DNA from: Isohypsibius dastychi
Lineage: Eukaryota > Tardigrada > Eutardigrada > Parachela > Isohypsibiidae
Direction: 5' to 3'
Assembly (NCBI GenBank): GCA_034696485.1
Contig: JAQIWT010000320.1
Coordinates: 1 to 23,455, forward strand
DNA length: 23,455 nt
Under the pieces are notes generated by a model, which did no database searches, was not told the DNA's origin, and was given only the letters and a program-made list of their open reading frames with translations. Shown one piece after another: positions 572 to 23,455 of the stretch. Within the stretch, counting starts at the first letter, position 1. The number at the start of each line of letters is the position of its first letter. Made by a program: the position numbers and the translations under genes.

Positions 572-3500
572 ATGTCGACCAAAGATAACCATTTACCTAT
601 TATCAGCGGCCCAGAAAGTTCGCTGTTTCATGACCAAAGAACCGGTGATTATTTCACGACTTACGAGTAAGTGGAATATTAATCATGTCAGAAAGAAACG
701 AAGATTCAGCTGTTTTTGGTTTAGCGCCTTTTTCGAGCATGTGCTTTCGGAGAAGTTTCCCGTTCTCGCGGGAAAAGTCCACCATGAATCAGTCTCAGGA
801 AAGTCATTGACATGGCATGAAAGGACGCTACCGAGAACGGATATTACAGAATACAAAACATCGCTGGATTTCCATTTGGAGCTCGCTGTCCTGTTTATGG
901 TCCCTTTCACCCCAATGAGATCTTTGGATGCCCTGGTTAATTCGCTGTTTGGATATCTGGAAGAGCGTTTCATGAGAAACGAACCTGTTCTTGTCTTCCA
1001 TGCCAATTCCTGGTAATAGCTGATTTATCTCTGTCTTTGCAGATTTTTACACATTGAATATTTTCAGGATTCCGGGGAAGATCGTGAATGTTCGTTTAAA
1101 CCGCATTCATCCTGAAAATGTGATTTTGGATGGCACGAGGTAAACATCCAGGCGATGTGCAGAAAATGATTTCTCGAATTTTTGAATGAATTTCCTATTC
1201 AATCGATCCAAGTACTTCGATCTTGGCCACTTTCAACTTCGTGTGAAAAAGTGTTTTTGACTAGGTTTGTTTTTGTTTTAGATATCCACCATCTGAGTTC
1301 GGGTACGATGTCCAGCTATTTTCTGCTGAAGATGAGCAGATCCGAACAGATGTGCGGTGCTTCGATTTGAGGTAAATTATTGGTCTCTTTTTTCGGTAGG
1401 AAATTGCCAGCAATTGACAAAAAGATGGAATATTGTTTTAAGTGAAATTTAGTGAAACCGAAGATTTGGATGGGAGGGTTCGCGTACTGTACTGTTCTAT
1501 CGGATAGTGTGTTTAGTTAAGTCTGCCTGATGTCGAAATCGAACTTGTAAGATAGCTTGCGTCGAGCTTGCTTGCTTCCGTAATCGCCATTCTACGACAG
1601 TGCTGCCCTCACCTATTTTCCTCACAGATTTGAGCTTCTAGGTTGCTTCTGCGTTTGTGAATCCTCAAGGCGCTTGCTACTTCGTAGCTATTCATTTCCG
1701 GTTGAATTAATGCACGAAATAACAGCTGTTTTTCGTAACTCCAGCGTTCATTCAGCTGATTGCTGGCAGCGAGAATACATATTTCCTTTGGTTGAGAATT
1801 TGTTTCTTTCTTAGAAATCAATTTTTTAAACTTGTGATTTTCTTGAGATGCTTTTCTTTGCCGGATACAGCTACAAGCTTGAACGTATGTAAATGTACCA
1901 ACCAACCAACCGTGCTTTTGGCCACTCGTTTACTAATCCGGATTGGTTCAGGCCAAACAGTCGCTTGGCTTTGATTGGTTGAGGGGGTGAATCGTTCATC
2001 AGGGTGTACGTGGTATCCCTCGACCCGCTCCTTGATCGAAGCTTATTGAATTTATGAAAAATTATATCTAAATTCAAATTAGCGAACTTCTATAACCAAA
2101 ATATTTTTTTCTTGTTAAAAACTACCGTGTTTGGTTTGTTGCGTTTAATGGTGGTCTGATGAGGTCTGAGAGGGCGGTCGATTAAGCAGCACGTGTTTGC
2201 TGTGTTTCACAGGCGAGGCGAAGGCTCGTTTTCAAGAGAACTGCTGCGCTGCAGCCTGCTCCAACACTGCAAGTGCCGAAAATCTGGCAGTGTATGGTGT
2301 CTCAAAGTAATTGCATCTTTTCTTGTTGATATGCTCCTGTATGTCAGAATTTTGATATCTAGGATAAAACTGTGGAATTCTTCAATGTAGACAACGTCGC
2401 ATGGTGGGATATGTTTGCGGGACCCGAGCCTAGATTTTCTGTACCCTCCAAACCCACCAAACATTTCCCGCGTCAGGACAAACTGGATAAGCACACAATG
2501 GACCGCCAAAAATCGAAAAAGGACAACAAAAATCTTCTGATGCTTGGAAAAACCAGCAAAACCCTCAAGGACCTGGGAAAAGGAAGCTCAAAGAAGCGTC
2601 AACGTGAGAAAAAAGTCTTGCATCCCTTTTTTGTGAAACTTGACCCTTTGCTTGTTTTAAGCAGTCGAGGACGACTCCCAACCATCCACAAGCTTTAAAA
2701 AGAAGAAGTACAGCTTGGAGTTCAGGAAAGGACTGGCCAGAAGTGATGCTTCGACTAGCAAAGCCCAGACTCCAGAGGAAAGGAGACAGAAGCAGAAAGA
2801 GTACAAAAAGAAGGTAAAAGGACCTTTCCCGGCGGTCTGCCGGCTTCTTTATGGTTTTTCATTATAGTGGAAGGAAAAGCTAGCGAAGGAGCGTGAGCAG
2901 CTCAGCAAAAAGTGGGCGCAGATCTTCACAGTTGGCGAGGACCTCAATCAGCCAAATTTGAAAGTATTGGAGTTGTATGTTGTGGGGAACCTGGTTTCTG
3001 ACGGTTTCTCGTTGCAGCCTATTCCAGTTATCCCTAAAAGACTGTGTACTGATCTTCCTGAGCAGTTCATAGGCGATGGGTTGTTCGTGCTGGAGTTCCT
3101 GCGCACATTCGGAGCCAAATTCGAAAAACCAACACATGTTTCGGATTTGATCAACTGGGGTGAGTTCGTGAGAGAAATTAGCATTGACCAGTGTCCTTTA
3201 CATGCTTGTTTGTAGATTTGAACAACTTACATGCGGCGATAGCTTCGGAGAACATTGACGGAGAGTTTACTCGTTTGTTGGGGTTTTTCGCCAAAGCTGT
3301 GATGTCTTGCGTTCCTCCAAACTTCATGGAAGCTGGTGAGGAGCTCCTTGAGGTACCATAGTGACAAGATAACGTATATTTATTCTTCTAGATGATCCGT
3401 CATCATCCATATATCGGTCTGGGTGGGAGCAATTGGGATTGAAAATTGCCCAGTCCACACGTGTGAAACTTGGTAAAAATTGTAGTAAACTGACAAGGAA

Positions 3501-6500
3501 CTTGGTGAGGAGTTGGGATTTTGTTTTAGGGCTTGCTTTCAACAGGCTACCGGTGTCGTCATCCACAATTTCCGAAATTACACGTATGTGCCTGCTGGTT
3601 GCATCGCTCACTTTGCGATTGCCCGGAAGTACGGAAGCGAAATCTGATGGAGTGATTCTGAGATTCCTGCAGTCCCAGGCAGGAACCACTGTATATGATG
3701 TGATATACACGCATTCTGTATTCGCCTTGTCTTTCGGTAAGTGCGATTTGCCTTCTCGACTATTCTGGGTTCAACTGCTATGTTTTGCAGAACAACGAAT
3801 GAACCTCGTGGTGGTCTTCACTCAGTCTGTGATGGAATCGGACTTTGTTAGAGAAACATTGGAAACTCTTAATTCGGCAACCGATGATTCGGAACGGAGT
3901 CTCAGGATGTTGAAGAGCTTAACGGAAGAAGTCAGCCGGATATGCAAAGCAAAAATCGCAACGACTGTGTAAGTGAACAAAAATCTTTTGAAATGTGTTT
4001 TCCGTTATCTAAGATTGAGGCGAAAATTATGGTCGAATCGAAGTATTAAAATGTCACTACCCACCTAAAATTTCAGGGCGTATTTGATAGAAATAACTTT
4101 TTATTTTTGTCAGTTATTCCCGGTAATCAGATTTCATTCAGTCCGTTAAAAACGTGAAAACTTTTCTCGTTGAAACCTTGTGTTTTGAGTTGAGTTTTTG
4201 GTCAGTGAATTATATTATGATTTTACTTGTGTAGCATGTTTGGTCAGGACGGAGGATCTGGAACACGATCTTTGAGAATTTGTTCTGTCGTTTTAGTGCG
4301 AAGGACCGACCTGCGGATAAATCATCTGAAAAAGGAGATAGATTCCGCCAGCTCCTGGAAGCCTATGCGCGTAAACGGTCAGAACTGCGATCCGATAAAG
4401 GAAGAACTACGCAAGCATTGGTAGACGATATCCGCGTTCTGGGTGAAGGTCGGCGCAAGCGTCGTTTGTCTGACGGCGATATGCTGGCCCTGACGGAAGC
4501 GCTCGCCGATTTGCAAAAGAAATTCGACACGAATATCCACGACGAAAAGCATCAGCTTTCCGAGGCGATTTTCAACAGGAAGCTGAGTGTCCGAATGGAG
4601 CAAATCGGACTGGACCGGCATTTTTTTCATTACTGGCATCTTCCGCTTTATCCCGGCGTCCTTGTGGAGCGATCGTCATCCAGCGAGAGCAAGATCTGCT
4701 CAAAGGGATGTCTCTGCGAAGTTATCAACAAGGAAGTTCAACAAGAACAGACAGCGTCGTCTTGGTGGATGATTAGTCCGGAAGACCAACTCATTCTATC
4801 GAAGGGTCTTTCTCTCCATGGTGAACGCGAAGTGGCCCTCAAACGTGGTCTCGACCAGCATGTAGCTTCCAAGTCGGTCGATGGCTCCCCGGCAAAAGAT
4901 TTAGTTTCGATTATGAAAGATCTTCCTCGTCCGATTCCGGAAATATCTCCCGATATCAGCTGGGAAGATCAGATACTCGACAAGCTGAGATCAAGCCTGA
5001 TCGCATTGGAGGCGAAGCTGCAGAAAACACGCTTAGGTGGATGGAATGTATGTTGGAATTGGTTTCATTTCCTAAGCACGCTGTGACATTGATGTTGTTT
5101 TACAGCCGCCGGAAGATGAGAAGTGGATAGCTAAAGTGAACCGGCCTTTTGGTCAGCCTGATGAAATTGAGCCGGAAGAAAAAGTTGAGCTGGAATCCGG
5201 TCCACCAAGTAGCCCTGAAATTCTTGCACCGCCTGCTGAGATTTTGGAAGCAGTTCCGCCAGGCTTGACGAACGGGCATTCGCATCCGGAAGAACCCTCG
5301 GCGTGCGAGCCTATGGAGCTGGAAGACAGCGCGCAGCGTGAACCGGAAGTACCCGGTCTGGTGGAGTTGATGAAAACTTCTTTAGAAAACAACGGAAGTG
5401 AGGATAAGGATGACGAAAATGGACAGAGCACCCATGTTGTCCAAGCTGTTCCCGAGCCAGTCGTTGTTGAGACTCAAACGAATAAAGATCTGAAGCGGCT
5501 GATTCAGCGGGTTGGCGAACTTGTTGAGACTGTCAGGCTACGTTACATTGGTGCTCCGCTAGGTATGTTACTTCGGTGAGTTTTTGAAATGTTATATCTG
5601 ACGGAATTTTACCATTAAGTGACGATCGGCGAACAATCCAATAAGGACGCCAGTCAACTGGAGCATTGGAAGAGTTCCTTACAGTCATGTAGCAGCCCAT
5701 CCCAAATAAATCTGCATTTGCACGTTTTTGAACATTGCATCTTGTGGAATAAAGCTGTGGTCGCTGGACTCTGCAAACAGTGTCGGAAAAAGGGCGAGCC
5801 GGAGAACCTTGTCGTCTGCGATGGGTGGTCAGTTGTTGATCAAAATATAATTTCATGGGTGTTTTATGTATTTGTTTGTTTTTAGTGATCGGATATACCA
5901 TTTTTACTGCGTCGAGCCACCCGTCACGGTAGGGAGTTTCTCCGGTGATTTTTCCTCTTGATTTAATATAGTTTTGCCGTTATAGGAAATCCCGAAAGAA
6001 CAGTGGTTCTGCATGATCTGTAAACCTCCACCCGCAGTTCCTCGAAGCCGTCGGGTGCGTCATACTGTTAACTACAGCGAAGGTGTAGCGCCATCGCAGG
6101 AGAACGTTGCAGTGGCGCCACCTGTGGTTTCCGATCCTGGTCGACCAAAGATTTCTGATCGAGCTGCTCGGGCTCTCCAACGAAGTCATGCCTTATATGG
6201 AGACCGAGATAGTGTTCATTCCGAAACCAGCAGTGCCGCCTTCTCAGCTGATGGTGATGGAACCAGGCGATCAGCGCGGTCGAAGCGTGTTGATTACAAG
6301 GAACTGGATGGTGGACCGAAGGATGTGCCAAGTCGAGCTGAGTCGATCGAAGAAGATCTTACCGAGGAGGACCTGGAATATGTGAATGGCGATTTCCATA
6401 TCGAGAATGAAATTCAGTCTGGTTCTGAAGACAGGTAAATGAGGATTATTTTATGGAGTCATTTCGGAAGTTATTTAGCTTTTGTGTTTTAGTGAATATG

Positions 6501-14021: not shown

Positions 14022-16024
14022 ATGTACGCCGATCGTGAACCTGTTCGTGCAATGCCTCCCAATGTTCAGCGAGCTGTAGTGTGGCAGAATGCCAAATCGG
14101 TTCGTTCGCAGACTTCTTTCCTGTTGGAAAACCCGGAAGTGATCCCGACTGATGCAGTCTTCCGCGTTGGTCCATCAGCCGAAACCATCAAGGCCCACAG
14201 GTAACTTTGACATATCACCTGGTTTTCTGAGTTTCCAAACATATTTTCCAGATTTATCTTGGGCATGAGGAGCACCAAATTCTTCGACATGTTCTTCGAG
14301 CAGCCTCGGATTCCCGAAGCCAACAAAGATGACTCTGCCCAGTCTCAGCATGAAGCTGATGTTTCAGCCAATGATACTAATCCAGAATCATTCGAACCTT
14401 CTGAAAGCTCTTTGGACGGAGAACCCAAAGATTCCGCGGAAACTCTGAAGGACGAAGAGGAGAAAGTCGTTGCTGAAGAGAAAGTATTGAATGTCGATGA
14501 AGAAAAGAAAGGAGGCTCTTTGGATGAGATTCAGCCTGTGGAAGTGACAGACGTTCGGGTTCCTGAATCTGTCGAGATTGATCTGCCAGATGTTGAACCG
14601 TCTGCATTCAAGATTATGCTTGGGTAAGTGGAATTGATATTGCAGTTCTACGCGATCTTGATGGGGTATTATTAAGGTATATCTACAAGGAAGATATCAA
14701 TTTGGAAATGGCGAAAGCGATGGACACGTTGTACTGCGCAAAGAAGTTCCGAGTGGCTGAGCTGGAGGCCAGCGCGCAGCGAGTCATTGCAGGTGGAATT
14801 GCGGCTGAAAACGCGTTCCAAGTCCTGGAAAAAGTGAGTTTATTTTCAGAGTGCGATTTTGTGGGGTATTCTGACGTCTGTTGATACAGGCTCGCCACAT
14901 GGGCGATAACACGTTGGTTGAGAAAGCTCTCGGAGTAATCTTCGCAGATACTAAGAAAGCTCTGGAAGCTGATTGGTTCTTGAACGTTAGCCGCGAAGTT
15001 TTGCTGGACTTCCTCAAATCGGACGCTCCTGATGCCCCCGAGATGGAGATCTACAAAGCTGCTCGAAGGTTCGCTTTTCTTGTTTAACAGCTCCCGATTT
15101 AATTTTCAAACTGATTGGTTTGATAGATGGGCGGTCAAGAATTGTGATATGGTGGCGCCAGCAGGCGAGGATTTGCGAGAGTTCTTGGGAGAGTGTTTCA
15201 GCCACATCCGGCTGCCCCTGATGGATGCTAAAGAATTCCTCGCTGGACCTTGCGCGGTAATTAAAATTTGGTCCCTATTGTTTTCATCGGTTTTTTATGT
15301 TGTTTATATTCAGGATGCATTGGTTACAAAGGACGAGAAAGTCGCGTATTTTGAAGCTACTATGGGCGAAGAGAAAAAGGAAATGCCCGGGTTCTCCGGA
15401 CAGCCTCGAAAGTATCGGAAGGAAATACCCCAGCCAGAACGACCAGTCCAGCATCAGCCACGTTCAGACATCGTTCCAGACCAACGTTTTGGCAGTTCAC
15501 CTCCTTTCCGCGCTCCTCGAACGGAAGGACAGTTCCAAGGTCGCTCCGACATTTCCAACCAGCGAAACCCGTTTGATCAGCCGCGAGATAACTTCCGCCG
15601 CGATGGAGCCAATCCCTATGCATCGAATGGGAATTTCCGTCAGCGTGATGAGCCGTCGGGTGGACAGTTTCCGCAGCAAAGCCATGGTGGATTTGGTGGC
15701 GGCTCGCGTGATCGAGAGGCTGCCGTTTCGGCTTTGGCAAACTCTGGAGGAGGATTTCGTAGCGATCAGTCGAACTTCCGCCGGGAAACTTCTGGGGACC
15801 ATGCTGGAGTTAGTGGAGACGGTCGGCGCCGATTTGGAGCAGATTCGCGGATTGATGGGGGTGATCAAGCAGTCAGTGGTCGAGGTGGATTTGGACAGTC
15901 TGGAGAATACAAGTCGCCAGGCGTTCGCATGGAGGAACGTGGCAACACCGGAAGTGAAAGTGTGACTTCTTCTACTGATGGCAGTCGCCCTAATCGCGCT
16001 CGTTTCGGACCTGTGCCGCAGTAA
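14022..16024 (+). CDS. BTB/BACK-domain protein (BTBD1/2/3/6-type) with acidic insert and Arg/Gly-rich tail, 6 exons
   Basis: Exons 14022-14200, 14252-14623, 14677-14833, 14890-15068, 15127-15256 and 15314-16024 join in phase to 575 residues. The BTB fold begins with VFRVGPSAETIKAHRFILGM and STKFFDMFFEQ. It resumes after about 85 residues with VEIDLPDVEPSAFKIMLGYI. The residues between are strongly acidic (Glu/Asp/Ser/Lys), where family members have a short loop. BACK follows: LYCAKKFRVAELEASAQRVI, LVEKALGVIFADT, EIYKAARRWAVKNCD, then IRLPLMDAKEFLAGPCA. BTBD1/2/3/6 proteins usually bind Cullin-3 through BTB/BACK and end in a PHR domain. Here the last exon instead encodes about 235 residues rich in Gly, Arg, Gln, Ser and Phe with RG/FRR motifs, a disordered RNA-binding-like composition. 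The role is inferred as a Cullin-3 adaptor or scaffold. The ATG at 14022 is the first in frame. Confidence 0.85.
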
Positions 16025-16548: not shown

Positions 16549-19500
16549 ATGGTGAACCTATTTTTGTTCGGATTGTTACAGTTTTCGGCGTTTGTATTCC
16601 TGGCGGAAGCGGGATATAAAACAGTCTGTTATTATGAATCATGGGCAGTTTACCGGCGATTGGATTCTCGCCTCAGCGCCGATTTCTCGCTGAATACCCC
16701 ACCTTGTACTCATCTGATTTATGCATTTGCGCTGGTTAAAGATGGACTGATTGCTTCTTTTGATCCAACTGTCGACTTGGATGGTGCTGGACAATATGGT
16801 GGATACCAAAAATTTAATCAAATTAACGTGAGTATTTTTACGTGGAATACTGAGAATTCTGAAAGCAAACTGCATTTTGAAAAGTAAAGACTCTTGGCTG
16901 CTGGTTTGGAAAATGATTGAATTTTTTTATATAGATTAATAAAGGTGTATCTCATTTATTTGATAAATTCTTTTGCGGCTGCTTGCTAATATTTCTGAAC
17001 TGCAGTTTGTGTTTTCAGAAAAGTGCCAAAAATATTAAAACTCTTCTGGCGGTTGGAGGTTGGACCGCTGGATCAAAGGAATATTCCGACATGGCCAGCA
17101 CATCCGACTCACGGGAAATGTTCGCTCAGCAAGCACTTATTTTTCTAAGACAACATGGATTTCAGGGATTGGATATTGATTGGGAGTATCCTGCTGATCG
17201 GGATGGGTCAAGACCGGAAGACAAAGAGAATCTGTCTTCATTGCTTCAGGTTGGCTTTGGTCAAAGTTCAGTCGGCTTCGCGGGTTGGGCAACTCTAAAT
17301 AATTCTTCCTTGCAGGAACTTCGATCTGTTTTTAATGCTGAACAGCTTCAACCTGGCCAAGAGCGACTGTTGCTGACGATCGCTGTTTCGCCGCATCCGG
17401 ACAAGTTGGATAAATCTTACGAGATGGCAGTGATCGGAAAGTGAGAACCGTTCTGGATTTTTTATTTTGCCTGAATGATATGCATTTTTTTCGTTTCAGA
17501 TTGGTGGACTTTATTAATATTATGACGTACGATTACGCGCGAGCTTCGTGGATATCGGAAATAAAGCCGCACAATCCGCTGTGGAAACGGTCAGATGATA
17601 CCTCATGGAATTCACAGCTGAACGCGGTAAAAATTTTTGTTCCTGTTCTAGCGCTCTCTAGAACAAATTTTGTTGCTCTTTGAAGGATTGGGCAGTTCAA
17701 AAGATGATTAAAGACGGCGTTCCATCCGAAAAACTGATTTTGGGAATACCGACATATGGTGTGACCTTTAAGGTTTCCGATGACGGATCAGTTCCACGAG
17801 TACATGGATCTCATTTGGGATCCGGAGATGCCGGACCTGTCACAAAAGAAAAGGGTTATCTGGCATTTTACGAGGTTTATTTTCCAAGTCTTGAAAGGTT
17901 TGTTGTACTGGGTAGGTTCATGGTATTTTGGTTTGTAGATATGTCGCCGGTTGAAAATGGAAAAGCAGTGGATCAGCGCGATGGATGACTCGGGAGTTCC
18001 GGTCTGTTATCGGAAGAATGTCTGGATATCCTACGAGAACCCAAAATCAACGAGAACGAAGGTAAGAAATACTGATTGTGAAATCGATTAATAAATTCTA
18101 ATTCTTTTGTTTTGCCTGTTATTTAGGCGCTGTATGTCATGCGAAGCAAACTCGGAGGAGGTAAGTTCTTATTTTTTCCCACGCGAAGATTATGTTCCGA
18201 AACTTGTCCTTTGTTTTTCTTCGGCTGAAAATAATTTTTCCAACCTGTTTACGAAATTAATTGGCATTTTTTGCAGCCATGGTTTGGTCGTTAGCGACCG
18301 ATGATTTCAACGGATTCTGTTACGGAAAGCGCTATCCAATCACACAGACAATTCGAGATACCTTCGATGCCAGCACGAAGCTGATGAGCCGGACTGGTTC
18401 TAGTCTTTATAATGCCGGTTCTAACAACGCAGCCGCTCTTTCGACTGTTTCGGAAAACTGCTTATCGGATGGAAGTCGTTGTACCACTCCAGTATTCTGC
18501 CCGGAAATCAAACGTGTTTTCCTTCCATACGAGCTTGCATGTGTGAACGTGTTGGGAAAATGCTCTTATCCAAAGATTCAAATTTGTGACGTCCCTAAAG
18601 TGACCACAACTGTCGCAAATTATAACAAGGTTTCGATAATGCTGACGGATATCCAGAAGTCTGTCAATCTTTCTTGCGCCAACGGAGCTTCGCTGAATCA
18701 GGATTTGGTGGTTACCTCCGTTCCCGGAAAATGTAAGAAGCGATATTTGACATGTGAGGGGAATCTTCTGGGGGGTTACAACGTGGTGACTTACTTCTGT
18801 CCGGGTATTGCGGAATTCGATTCCACGTTGAAGGTGTGTAAGCTGCCTGATACGTATGATGGAGAAGAGGAAAATTGTGTCGAACAACGGGCTGGTTCGC
18901 CGAACCGACTTCCGGCTGGAAATGGATATGGTGGGATCAGTCAACTAGCGGATAATACATATGGATATTCTTTTGCGAAGACTAGAAGTGGATCCTATGC
19001 GGCTTTTTCAGCGACCACACAGAAACCGGTAAGATGCTCTATCGCGCACTGAAGTTGCTGAAAAGGTCACTCTGGGATTATTTGGAAAACTGTGCCTGAA
19101 CAAAATATTTCTAATATTGTGAAAATTTACAAAATTCTTTGAGTAGAAGTGTTCTGACATAATCGAACTGAACATCTTTTTGTATTTAGGAACAGCAGAA
19201 AAGTTTTGGGGCACCGGAAGTGTCCAAGAGCAGACCGGTGTCATCTCTGTACTCTTCATCATTTATTGAGGACGACATTCGAGCGGGTTATGAAGATGTG
19301 ACCATACAGCCTACATCAGAATACGTTCCACCAACAGAAGAACCAGTTTTTTACGGAACCACGCAGAGATATGAAGACCAGGAGCGTGTGGACCCAGCGT
19401 TCGAGGACATCTTTCGGGTACGTGGTTGACAGCCACCAGTAATATAAACTAGCTGCTTGTTCCGCGCTACGCGCAGAAATCTGCAGAGACTGAAAAATTC

Positions 19501-20875
19501 GCTCTAGAGTTCCAAGTGCTAGGCTGTTACACCCAAACTGTCCAACCCTTCGGATTGTCAGGTGTTCCACCGAAAGGGGGGAACCATTCCGATTGTTCAG
19601 AGTTCAACCGGAAAGGGGGAAACCTTCGGATTGTTAGGCCAGCCGGAAGCCCCTGTGATTGTTTTCTCTACCGGTAGTATGTTCGGGAGTTGGCCAAAGT
19701 GTATTGGGAGAGAAAGTGACCGGTTATCGCTGTTGCGGTAGATGCACAAATCCATCAGTCAATCAACGTTTCACTCGGTGTGACACACTCAGTGGGCGAA
19801 CATGTATTTGCAGTTGCGCAAAAGCAACTACTCAACTCAATCAGTGTGACGTACGAACGTTAGCACTTTAATATAAAGATTCCGGGCGAGTTATTATCTC
19901 TTAGCATACTTTTGTATCAGAAAAACAGGAAGTAATTCTGATGATACCGTATTTTTGTTTGTTTACAGCAAAGTGCAGGGTTTCCGGCAGAAACGTTTCT
20001 GGAGGGTGACGAAGTTCGAACCGGGAACAATATCGAATTGCCTCCATCACGTTCTATGACGCAGGAAAATGTAGGGATTCAAACAGGACACTGTTTTTTC
20101 AGTCACAGACTCGTTTTTTACTGTTTCTTGTTTAGATGAATTCTCCTCAGAAACAACCTGAATTCAGCCAGTCCCGACGAAGGCCGCAGTTTGCCGAATC
20201 AAACCAACGATTTACTGAGGAAGTAAGAGAACCCGAATCGAAATTCATCTAGTGGCTTATATTTTATTCACGTGATGTTATAGATCTGTTTTATTTATTC
20301 ATGTTCGCTCTGTGTTTAATAATATTTACTTCTTGATTTGTGTTGTATCTAATGACTTATATTTTAGAGAAATCTGGATCAAGCTTATTCGGGAAATTCG
20401 CAGATACCTGAAGTGATTCAACCACCGTTACCGATGGTAAGAGCCAGGAGAAAATCTGTACTGGTCCGTAGCTGTTAACATTTGAATTACTTAGATTTCC
20501 GCTCCAGTCCAGATACTTCCGGCTCGTAAAACACCCCCTCAGCCTCCCGTCCGTTCTCAAGCAGAACCGATACCGATCCACATGGCTGCCCGCAAGAAAG
20601 CGAGTCTCACAGATGGTTTGGTGCGGAAAATGCGTGATCAAGTTTCAGTTCCACATCCTTCGATGAATGAGAACAATAATCAACTGACGAGAAACTTTTG
20701 CGGTCGGATTGGTCAACGTACGGAAAACCCCGAGAAACCATGCAGCTCAAGTTTTCTACTTTGTTTGTCGCCCATGTCAGTTATTGAACTCCATTGTGGA
20801 GGTGGCTTGATTTTTGAAGAGCGACAGGGTTTTTGTGTACCAAGCAGCACATCGGTTTGTTTTAGAACCGGATGA
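16549..20875 (+). CDS. Secreted GH18 chitinase with CBM14-type chitin-binding modules, 13 exons
   Basis: Exons: 16549-16827, 17019-17249, 17316-17440, 17500-17626, 17686-17874, 17939-18061, 18127-18160, 18277-19028, 19190-19417, 19969-20070, 20136-20222, 20368-20436, 20495-20875; 908 residues in phase. A signal peptide covers residues 1 to about 21 (to FVFLAEA). The GH18 barrel runs from about 22 to 395 with KTLLAVGGW, the catalytic GLDIDWEYP (Asp145, Asp147, acid Glu149), NIMTYDY (about 218-224) and MVWSLATDDFNG (371-382). These enzymes cleave beta-1,4 bonds in chitin outside the cell. Cysteines 503, 522, 529, 544, 557, 570 and 851, 865, 872, 883, 896, 904 have CBM14 (peritrophin-A) spacing. 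Cysteines 431-473 form a less regular third module. Between 573 and 850 lies a Pro/Gln/Ser-rich linker whose exons 9 and 10 recur in the minus-strand gene downstream. Residue 142, usually Asp in DxxDxDxE, is Gln. The likely role is cuticle or gut-lining turnover. Confidence 0.88.
19190..19417 (+). repeat. Linker unit B (chitinase exon 9), copy also at 21883-22059 on the minus strand
   Basis: This exon encodes APEVSKSRPVSSLYSSSFIE, a short variable stretch and ERVDPAF. The minus-strand exon at 22059-21883 encodes RPEVSKRRPVSILYSSSSIQ and QRVDPAF with the same phase-0 borders. The two are highly similar at DNA level (for example GAAGTGTCCAAG and CGTGTGGACCCAGCGTTC are identical). The plus-strand copy has extra residues in the middle. 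Confidence 0.8.
19418..19968 (+). other. Intron 9 of the chitinase gene (551 bp), with a short tandem repeat
   Basis: The donor GTACGT follows 19417, and the acceptor TTTACAG precedes 19969. The matching intron in the minus-strand copy is only about 105 bp, so the extra 450 bp was gained here or lost there. It contains the GGGGGAA repeat at 19543-19637. It also contains a Cys-rich open frame at 19659-19871 (first codon TTG) that is not required by the gene model. Confidence 0.5.
19543..19637 (+). repeat. Imperfect tandem repeat, about 37-bp unit, 2.5 copies
   Basis: Units share CCTTCGGATTGT...GTTC, then ACCGAAAGGGGG or ACCGGAAAGGGGG. The third copy is cut after CCTTCGGATTGTTAG. The copies differ at several positions, so the repeat is not recent. 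It lies wholly inside chitinase intron 9. Confidence 0.6.
19969..20070 (+). repeat. Linker unit A (chitinase exon 10), related copies at 22152-22241 and 21736-21777 on the minus strand
   Basis: The exon begins QSAGFPAETFLEGDEVRTGN and ends with MTQEN. A minus-strand segment (22241-22152) encodes FPAETFLDSDEIRTGNNIDL and ends with VTQEH. A second minus-strand exon starts QSAGFPAGVFLEDD. Similarity to the first copy continues a few bases past the splice donor (GTAGG). The unit is short and its function is unknown. Confidence 0.75.
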
Positions 20876-21459
20876 AAACCAACAAGAAGCAAATAAATGG
20901 CAAAAGCGAACAAACGCTATTCAACTTGTTGATCTTCACAAAATGACAGCTTGATGGGGTTCTCGTACCTGGTGACCTTTATGGATCAAGTCCCACTCGC
21001 TCGGAAGCCGGATGGAAAGAAGCATATAGCCCGGATTTTTGTTCCGAAAGCTATCGATTTTCAGCGGGACTTACTTTGTTCATTGGAACGGCACATTAAA
21101 TTAACAATTCAAATACGGCAGCTGCCGCCTGCTCATTTGAATTTTGTAGCGGGTATGCAAAAATTATCCATGCCTTCTATATTTCGCCATAAATTCCCAA
21201 ATGGAAATTGTTTTGTATTGGTTCTAAATCATCAGAACGGATGAGTTGGAAAATCAACTGTTTTGTTTTTGAAAAATGGAGGGAATAGAGCGGGGAAAGA
21301 GCGTTAATTGCATCAAAAAGACGACTTCAAAAAGACTACGAAAACTTCGACACTGGCTGATCTGACTTTGACAAGCTGAAGTTTCGGAAAGAATTCGGAA
21401 TAGTAGGCGATCAATGTTAAAGAGCCTTAAAGAAAACAATGGACGCTTCGATGGCTGTC
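20876..21459. other. Convergent intergenic region between the chitinase and the chimeric gene
   Basis: It contains the chitinase polyadenylation signal and the 3' ends of two convergent genes. A plus-strand open frame (ATG at 20954, end 21244) encodes about 96 residues with no recognised family and no partner exon, and is not called as a gene. No transposon ends or other repeats were seen. Confidence 0.4.
20892..20897 (+). terminator. Candidate polyadenylation signal AATAAA of the chitinase gene
   Basis: AATAAA lies 17 bases after the stop codon at 20875, which would give a very short 3' UTR. It is canonical, and no better signal was noted nearby. Confidence 0.5.
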
Positions 21460-22571
21460 TCAAGGCACAGGAACAATCTTTATGATGTTACCTTTAACAA
21501 CAACTTCTCCCTGGGAAGACTTTTTCAGTGCCTCTGTTGCTTCATTTTCTTCCATATAAAAGATGAAATATCGACATCCGTCACCGCCAGCTACCATTCG
21601 TCCGAAAGCAAAGGCGCCGGGTACTTCTCCTTTAAACGCATCCTTCCATTCCTGTGTAGTCCCGACGATTGGAAATTTAGACGCCACCAGACAGATGCCC
21701 TTTTTCTGCGGGCCGTAACGACTTCGTGGAATCCCGTCATCCTCGAGGAAGACTCCCGCCGGAAATCCAGCACTTTGCTGTAAATGAACAAAGATCTGGC
21801 AACCTGGTCATTTTTCTGATGCAACAATACAATTACAAAAAATGGCAACTTGAGATCTCACTGTGACTAACGACCGACTCACCTGTACCCGGATTTTCTG
21901 GAACGCTGGGTCCACACGCTGCTGGTCGTCGTATCGCGACTGCATAGTCACATCGTCAAAACCTGCTGGACCGTCGTCCTGAATGGACGATGAAGAATAC
22001 AGAATTGACACCGGTCGGCGCTTGGACACTTCTGGTCGAATTAGAGGCTTCTGTGGATCCTGGATAAACGAGACATCAAAATCAGCCAAAAAATTCTTAA
22101 TAGAAAAATTATTCAGTTAACTGAAAAACAGTTTGCCCGAACAAATCCTACATGTTCCTGCGTCACAGAACGACGTGGAGCCAAATCAATATTATTCCCG
22201 GTGCGAATTTCGTCACTATCGAGAAACGTTTCCGCCGGAAATTCGATCGAACTCATGAATTCTTTGACTCTTCCAACATCCATGACATTAAGAGCTCTTT
22301 CAGCCAACAGGCTATCACCGATATTGAAAGCCTGCAACGCGAATACCTAAACATCCGTCCAGATTTGTTTAGGATCGAAGCTTACTCTGTCCAGGACCTG
22401 AAGTGCATTGTCAGCCGTAAGTCTTTCTGAAATCACTCGCTGCGCACTGGCTTCCAACTCTGCCACACGGAACATTTTCGCGCAACACAATGTATCCAGC
22501 GCTACATCCATATCCCAGTTGACATCCAGTTCCTCCTTGTAAAAGTACAATGCAAAGCAGGTAACTTGCAT
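21460..22571 (-). CDS. Chimeric gene: partial BTB/BACK, chitinase-type linker units and RRM-like tail, 4 exons
   Basis: Minus-strand exons 22571-22386, 22331-22152, 22059-21883 and 21777-21460, all joined in phase 0, give 286 residues without a stop. Residues 1-92 match the BTB gene at 14022-16024 from its third exon into its fourth. CCAKMFRVAELEASAQRVI faces YCAKKFRVAELEASAQRVI, 26 of 38 residues are identical over this stretch, and the intron position is the same. Residues 93-122 (FPAETFLDSDEIRTGN...) and 123-181 (PEVSKRRPVSILYSSSSIQD...) match chitinase linker exons 10 and 9, in reverse order. Exon 4 begins with another A-like unit (QSAGFPAGVFLEDD). It then has about 75 residues resembling an RNA-recognition motif: GCRYFIFYMEENEATEAL, then VVVKGNIIKIV. 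The first half of the BTB fold is absent. There is no signal peptide, so the linker pieces would be intracellular. The ATG at 22571 may be the start, or an upstream exon may exist. A pseudogene is possible, but the intact frame argues against it. Confidence 0.65.
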
Positions 22572-23056
22572 AGCTCAAAATTCGAAAATGCATGACAAGT
22601 TGCATAAGTTAACTGAGGGGGAATCCGGTAAGCTTACCATGATGCTACGCGAAATTTGACCAAAACCAGTGGTTACCAGTACCACACGCCTATACTGGGA
22701 GTACCGGATAACTTAAACCAAATGTAATGGATTTCAAGAATTAATTGATGAAACCGAGTGAAAAATAGCAGAACAAAAATAACAGATGTCTGGAATTATA
22801 AGAAATTGAATTCCAGCCAACCAGCAAACCGGAATCATAAAATTCAAAAATCCGCTTATCACAGCGGTATTAAGGACGACAAAGCAAAACAACAACACCG
22901 CCCAAAATGATCAATTAACACAAAGAACATGAACCGTGAACAAAGAACAGCTAATTTGGAATTTGGATTTTTTCCAGGACGACCACGCTTTTTGGGCGCA
23001 ATGTTCACTGAAATGTCTGAAACAGAACGAACTTTTCATATTTCCAGCTGTGATTT
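22572..23056 (-). other. Gap between the chimeric gene and the HTH-bearing ORF
   Basis: AT-rich sequence of about 485 bases. The missing first half of the BTB domain (exons 1 and 2 of the parent type) was looked for here on the minus strand and not found. It probably holds the promoter of the chimeric gene. Nothing else is supported. Confidence 0.45.
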
Positions 23057-23311
23057 CTAAATGGCGAATCCGTCTTCGACGTAACGGAATTCCGTATTTC
23101 CCACAAGACTTGATAACTCCTCCAGCTCGACTTCCTCCTCAGCTGTGAATTTAAATTTCCTGCCCATCTTGCTTGAGCTTCCAGATAATCTGCGGCCAAG
23201 TGTTGGCTGTGGAATTCCGTAAACCTTCCCAGCTTGCGAAAGAGACATTTTGCCCGATCTCACAGCCTCAAGTGCGCAGGCATTCATATTTTCTCTCCGG
23301 ACGAAATCCAT
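23057..23311 (-). CDS. Short protein with Pipsqueak/pogo-type helix-turn-helix, possibly a transposase remnant
   Basis: The frame on the minus strand from the ATG at 23311 encodes about 84 residues. ALEAVRSGKMSLSQAGKVYG followed by IPQPTLGRRLSG is the classic psq-type helix-turn-helix of pogo/Jerky/CENP-B-like transposases and of Pipsqueak-type regulators. KMGRKFKFTAEEEVELEEL then matches the start of the next DNA-binding segment (usually GRkpvfTpeEEeeL). The frame ends soon afterwards in a TAG at 23057, so the second HTH and the DDE catalytic domain are missing. The frame is also open upstream of the ATG, with hydrophobic content, but without another ATG. It may be the first exon of a longer gene, a domesticated solo DNA-binding domain, or a truncated transposon. 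No terminal inverted repeats were seen. Confidence 0.55.
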   Translation of the reverse strand: MDFVRRENMNACALEAVRSGKMSLSQAGKVYGIPQPTLGRRLSGSSSKMGRKFKFTAEEEVELEELSSLVGNTEFRYVEDGFAI

Positions 23312-23455
23312 ATTTCCGCAAGCACAAACAAGAACAGATACTAGAATAATGCAGGACGACCAGAGGAAAGATTGGGACAACAAGCAAGAGGGGAAGGAGA
23401 GGAAATCAAAAACGAAGAAAGAAGCGAAGCTGCAGTTTCGAATCTGGGCACAGGC

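Follow-up and report, generated by a model that had tools for sequence, protein, structure and literature searches.

The window examined here, the whole 23,455-nucleotide stretch of Isohypsibius dastychi DNA held by contig JAQIWT010000320.1 (C320), carries towards its right end a minus-strand frame of 286 residues that has the look of a small gene in its own right. A first-pass annotation, made from the letters alone, had read this frame as a young chimera, in which the second half of a BTB/BACK gene, linker units of a secreted chitinase and an RRM-like tail were brought together, and had noted that all internal introns are phase 0, the class that permits exon shuffling. The question raised by the locus is whether the frame is a newly formed gene with its own start codon, or a part of something older that begins elsewhere.

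Composition and joins of the frame

The frame is open across four minus-strand exons (22571-22386, 22331-22152, 22059-21883 and 21777-21460), with GT-AG splice sites and three phase-0 introns. When its 286 residues were searched against the 30.4-Mb assembly, the only strong non-self matches were the BTB gene (E 1.7e-12) and the chitinase (E 9.2e-8 and 7.4e-7) on the same contig; two weak rows, one with E 0.05 on C1488 that overlapped a BTB match and one with E 2.46 on C169, were not informative. A search with the linker and C-terminal end of the chitinase returned seven rows, all of them on C320. At the DNA level, five inverted blocks connect the composite with its plus-strand neighbours (149 nt at 74%, 138 nt at 75%, 97 nt at 81%, 61 nt at 79% and 44 nt at 86% identity), three shorter inverted pairs of 25-28 nt being taken as chance, and the nucleotide identity of the composite pieces to their parents is 68-83%. 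These matches to the neighbours, together with the predicted fold of the tail, support the annotated composition of pieces of two adjacent genes and an RRM-like end. The GH18 catalytic domain is absent from the composite, in which the 286-residue piece holds no Pfam family and only linker units C, D and D' were matched; likewise, the BACK domain (PF07707) was not detected in the copy, exons 3-4 alone matching no Pfam family at E ≤ 10. The features are collected in Table 1, where exons are numbered as in the full copy described below.

Table 1. Features of the composite locus and of its parents (window positions unless a contig is named)
Feature	Position	Strand	Details
Parent BTB/BACK gene	14022-16024	+	6 exons, open frame; BTB E 1.3e-14, BACK E 3.9e-7
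Parent GH18 chitinase with CBM_14	16549-20875	+	13 exons; GH18 E 2.8e-86, CBM_14 E 2.4e-6
Chitinase linker units	C 19190-19417, D 19969-20070	+	
BTB exons 1-2 of the copy	C182:671-490, 433-173	-	phase-2 introns
Exon 3 of the BTB copy	22386-22547	-	end of the BTB domain; protein 63% identical to the plus-strand BTB gene, E 1.7e-12
Exon 4	22152-22331	-	BACK start (to about 22291), 49 nt without assignment, linker unit D (from 22241); blastn break points
Exon 5	21883-22059	-	linker unit C, copy of chitinase exon 19190-19417; E 7.4e-7; two blocks at 81% and 83% nucleotide identity
Exon 6	21460-21777	-	start of second linker unit D' (to about 21735), 79% nucleotide identity over 61 nt, then tail with predicted RRM-like fold
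Pogo-like DNA transposon of ~1 kb, right 908 nt	22548-23455	-	HTH_psq ORF 23311-23057; holds ATG 22571; contig stops inside

The homology to the BTB gene extends over exon 3 and its intron into the first part of exon 4, up to 22291 (parent 14930), and that to linker unit D runs from 22241 (parent 19981) through the whole of the next parent intron to 22079 (parent 20142). Linker unit C follows from the exon boundary at 22059 (parent 19190), with ungapped homology from 22036 (parent 19213), and a second D extends from 21795 (parent 19951, intronic) to 21735 (parent 20011), after which the tail begins. The BTB-to-linker join thus lies within an exon, as had been proposed, and the break given at residue 92/93 is the right edge of the 49-nt gap between the two homologies. 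Because two of the three internal joins (BTB/linker and linker/tail) fall inside exons and only the D/C join coincides with an intron, phase-0 exon shuffling is not the general route by which the pieces were brought together. Introns were kept, and the copy was therefore made from DNA and not from mature mRNA. Furthermore, the junction at which parent position 20142 is followed by a return to about 19190 may be the trace expected of a tandem C-D duplication. The sequences of D1, D' and the chitinase D, with 18 codons available for comparison in D', are not long enough to give an order of the linker duplications.

Among public proteins, one relative of chitinase residues 400-900 was found, Ramazzottius varieornatus RvY_06543, with 48% identity over 35% of the region and close agreement along the GH18 domain; by inspection, the Ramazzottius chitinase has no clear C or D unit, so the direction of linker copying is unpolarised. 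The parent's donor for exon 5 would place the end of that exon at 21889. Chitinase linker exons C and D are separated by a 551-nt intron in which short imperfect repeats are visible by eye (window 19520-19640), and the counterpart of this intron in the copy measures only 105 nt.

A transposon supplies the apparent start codon

A DNA search of the assembly with positions 21400-23455 revealed that the sequence upstream of about 22545 is a dispersed repeat: of the 24 rows, 21 fell on 12 contigs other than C320, and the three on C320 were the query itself plus two blocks of the chitinase. The last base of the element is 22548, followed by a TA target site; the element is flanked by TA at each end and has terminal inverted repeats. 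Seven more element ends that share the exact last nine bases (two on C15 and one each on C263, C5, C1542, C1176 and C182) all border TA. The ORF at 23311-23057 matches HTH_psq (PF05225, E 3.7e-13), and a longer related copy on C263 contains both HTH_psq (E 2.9e-14) and DDE_1 (PF03184, E 1.8e-9). Judged by its TA site, its inverted repeats and its HTH_psq domain, with DDE_1 seen in the C263 relative only, the element at 22548-23455 is assigned to the pogo-like (pogo/Tigger-type) DNA transposons. The copy in the window is about 1 kb long with an HTH ORF and no DDE domain seen, and is probably non-autonomous.

The homology to the BTB gene begins at 22547. Since the element ends at 22548, the ATG at 22571 lies within its terminal repeat; the first eight annotated codons (22571-22548), ATG included, are transposon sequence. 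The annotated four-exon frame and its introns stand, but the 5' end does not. Members of the family, with inverted repeats of ~60 nt, were located at C182:1-114, C320:22548-23455, C15:18212-19190, C263:15585-18021, C5:95122-95354, C1176:1-76 and C1542:3-190. Five of these contigs (C320, C182, C5, C1176 and C1542) start or stop at or near the element, and the family seems to be a frequent cause of contig breaks.

If the 286-residue protein were made as annotated, the element would donate both promoter and ATG. The ATG is in frame, the frame is open and the ORF pieces have coding-like codon scores; however, the same element end occurs at other loci, so that the ATG is not specific to the composite gene, and the product would be truncated, without most of the BTB domain. 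A longer gene with a start of its own, described next, explains constraint and codon signal equally well, and we regard a protein made as such from the transposon start as quite improbable.

A probable 5' half of the gene on a second contig

The annotation had treated the 286 residues as a self-contained gene derived from the second half of the BTB gene; the other half, however, was found on contig C182, and the self-contained look is due to the transposon insertion and the contig end. A search of the 30.4-Mb assembly with the parent BTB protein (E ≤ 1) gave 22 rows, which comprised the parent, exon 3 of the copy, a single 5' half, and distant rows at 20-35% identity. The 5' half consists of C182:480-671 (90% identity to residues 1-63) and C182:289-441 (65%), both on the minus strand. 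It matches the BTB profile (PF00651) with 29.5 bits against a cut-off of 20.5; the parent scores 54.7 bits, and exons 3-4 of the copy alone do not match the profile. The three introns within the window are phase 0, as annotated, but the two upstream introns are phase 2.

The first 114 nt of C182 belong to the left end of an element of this kind, located just past the second intron of the gene. This piece and the 908 nt on C320 complement each other; projected onto the C15 copy of the element, they leave a gap of about 20 nt. Joining the flanks yields an intron acceptor, kept intact, and an in-frame exon 3 at the same place as exon 3 of the parent. One 5' half and one orphan 3' half of the copy were recovered from the assembly, the remaining rows of the searches with the 286 residues and with the parent BTB protein being distant BTB genes at 20-36% identity or a chance row. 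C5, which ends in the same element, overlaps the window end at only 87% over 86 nt and was set aside as another copy of the element; element ends are also present on C1176 and C1542, neither of which appeared in the BTB search. As no read spans the gap, we infer the adjacency of C182 and C320 from these flanks. The full copy would then comprise BTB exons 1-2 on C182 and exons 3-6 in the window, at least six exons in all, none with a stop or frameshift and all with conserved splice sites. No transposon-free copy of the gene was found in the assembly.

When the first 10 kb of C182 were compared with the window, only the BTB exons and the element matched, and thus the ribosomal protein gene beside the parent BTB gene was not copied there. 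About 37 codons of an acidic stretch in the parent BTB domain are missing from the copy (window 14252-14623 versus C182:433-173); either sequence may have changed. Directly upstream of the split copy, at C182:~2500-4541 on the minus strand, frames resembling a BTB-kelch gene are seen by eye. Across the whole assembly of 30.4 Mb, the scoring of 150 out of 175 candidates gave at least 134 BTB domain matches. Many lie in open frames about 255-300 aa long, and their clustering (five on C246) suggests an expansion of BTB genes.

Misjoined reads are a conceivable source of the composite in a draft assembly of 1648 contigs, and a repeat lies at the end of this one. However, the divergence of the pieces from their parents is 17-32%, which makes confusion of reads hardly possible; moreover, two joins lie inside open exons, and it is in the transposon, and at none of the joins, that the contig breaks. 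An assembly artefact is for these reasons scarcely credible.

Age, constraint and coding signal

The copy and its parents were compared pairwise at synonymous and non-synonymous sites. Across BTB exons 1-3 (198 codons), dS is 0.83 and dN 0.20, a ratio of 0.25 (bootstrap 95% 0.16-0.36), though two sequences without an outgroup cannot separate constraint on the parent from constraint on the copy. Divergence is lower for exon 1 by itself (dS 0.42, ratio 0.09). Linker units C and D (92 codons) have a dS of 0.48 and a dN of 0.27, and their ratio of 0.56 (0.34-1.09) is compatible with neutrality; exon 4, with 22 comparable codons, gives 0.57 (0.31-1.91). These ratios suggest that the BTB part was probably under constraint. 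Because synonymous divergence from the parents amounts to 0.5-0.8 (0.83 for the BTB part and 0.48 for the linker part), the fusion is not young, contrary to the original reading.

Codon scores were compared with those of 57 null ORFs, the highest of which reached 0.048. All six pieces of the copy that were tested exceed this value, exon 2 just so (0.055). The tail scores 0.096 per codon, and the ORF that overlaps it on the other strand scores -0.165; since the two parent genes served as training data, only the score of the tail is independent of homology. When neutral change was simulated at 0.24 substitutions per site, 0.4% of runs left the 278-codon 3' part stop-free, against 5.5% at 0.1. 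The tail alone remained open in 14.6% and 38% of runs, respectively, and its open frame by itself is therefore weak evidence.

These data bear on whether the composite is a dead patchwork, a scar of rearrangement that was never expressed and whose frames are open by chance. Such a pseudogene would account for linker units that are tandem and out of order, for a linker dN/dS indistinguishable from 1, for the insertion that breaks the gene and for a tail frame that often survives neutral change. It accords poorly with six exons that lack any stop or frameshift and keep their splice sites, with an upper bound of 0.36 on the BTB ratio, with the tail codon score above all null ORFs, and with an RRM-like model obtained for the tail and not for the overlapping plus-strand ORF. 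We consider it unlikely; as it is compatible with the transposon split, its probability overlaps that of the old, split coding gene preferred here, and the two need not sum to one.

The RRM-like tail

The tail had been annotated as RRM-like. No Pfam family, RRM included, matched it at E ≤ 1, but single-sequence AF2 models (best of five: pLDDT 62.6, pTM 0.50) resemble RRM structures, and the prediction of an RRM-like fold is of moderate confidence. No RRM-like model was obtained for the plus-strand ORF that overlaps the tail. In RRM domains, the aromatic residues of the RNP1 and RNP2 consensus motifs serve RNA binding; by eye, and in the register that we assumed, two of these three residues appear to be absent from the tail, namely the RNP2 aromatic and one of the two RNP1 aromatics. 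A candidate relative at C169:19865-20122 (E 2.46; 0.003 in a small subset) was rejected on account of an internal stop, and its frame resembles a haem peroxidase.

Formation and present state of the gene

Taken together, these data make it probable that the frame is the 3' half of an old, local patchwork gene of BTB, linker and tail, which was coding for a long time and was later split by a pogo-like transposon. The DNA itself shows the duplication and its joins, the coding signal and the transposon. In the proposed course of events, the BTB gene and parts of the neighbouring chitinase linker would have been copied at the DNA level, in inverted orientation, to a place just downstream, where the pieces would have been joined out of order (BTB exons 1-4a, linker D, linker C and linker D') and fused to the RRM-like 3' end. 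The product would have been one gene of at least six exons, starting at the BTB start codon, with a single transcript presumably running across them. Later, a pogo-like transposon of ~1 kb would have landed at a TA that lies a single base into exon 3. The assembly would then have broken within the element, so that the window displays the 3' half alone, with a transposon-borne ATG that mimics a gene start.

From exon 2, reading into the element via the normal acceptor meets a stop after 29 residues, and the portion of the element on C320 offers 41 AG acceptors, none of which restores the frame into exon 3. The gene is thus probably non-functional in the sequenced individual or individuals; it is possible that a protein lacking most of the BTB domain is made from the ATG at 22571. 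Before the insertion, the product may have worked as a BTB dimer or as an adaptor of the Cul3 type, its linker being disordered and its RRM-like end a degenerate interaction domain. Since the BTB start is part of the copied gene, it is plausible that a once-extracellular linker now belongs to a cytosolic or nuclear protein. A bolder proposal, which we put forward tentatively and with considerable doubt, is a long-lived, lineage-specific gene combining BTB, a chitinase-derived disordered linker and an RRM-like domain that selection maintained over most of its existence, and that a segregating insertion, present in some individuals, either silences or re-starts from the transposon ATG.

The locus illustrates how an old, interrupted gene can be given the look of a newborn one, with a start codon of its own, by a transposon and the end of a contig. 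If the gene is expressed in transposon-free individuals, a local rearrangement with several joins would have moved an extracellular linker, in frame, into an intracellular adaptor, and parents, joins and interruption could all be read in one place.

Comparison with known systems

Among 1661 candidate public proteins that shared 5-residue words with the 286-residue query (the C182 half excluded), none matched at E ≤ 1; none of 7997 candidates scored matched the parent BTB protein at the strict threshold of E ≤ 1e-10 (database 5.8 billion), a result that says little. Scans of the window for Rfam families (gathering threshold) and tRNAs returned nothing. The titles and opening abstract lines of the listed tardigrade papers on chimeric genes, BTB and transposons contain nothing on this composite gene, and a literature search for the combination of BTB domain and RRM yielded no paper, from which no wider claim of absence is made.

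Like other BTB-BACK proteins (PF00651, PF07707), the copy has a BTB domain in exons 1-3 followed by the start of BACK; unlike them, its BACK is cut after about 15-20 residues and gives way to linker units and a putative RRM-like end. SRSF1 RRM2 is a pseudo-RRM. The composite tail differs from it and from other RRM domains in having no Pfam RRM match and, by eye, in apparently missing two of the three canonical RNP aromatics. The interrupting element shares with pogo/Tigger-type transposons the TA target sites, the terminal inverted repeats, HTH_psq and, in a related copy, DDE_1, but the window copy is about 1 kb long, with an HTH ORF and no DDE domain seen.

A close parallel for the assembly of the gene is provided by Drosophila chimeric genes, which are reported to have formed via local duplication and rearrangement (PMC5460883, PMC6776367). 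In both cases, duplication or rearrangement at the DNA level appears to build new genes from existing parts (PMC5460883, PMC6776367); however, the tardigrade copy is inverted, has at least three joins in about 1.1 kb and was later cut by a transposon, and the species and ages differ.
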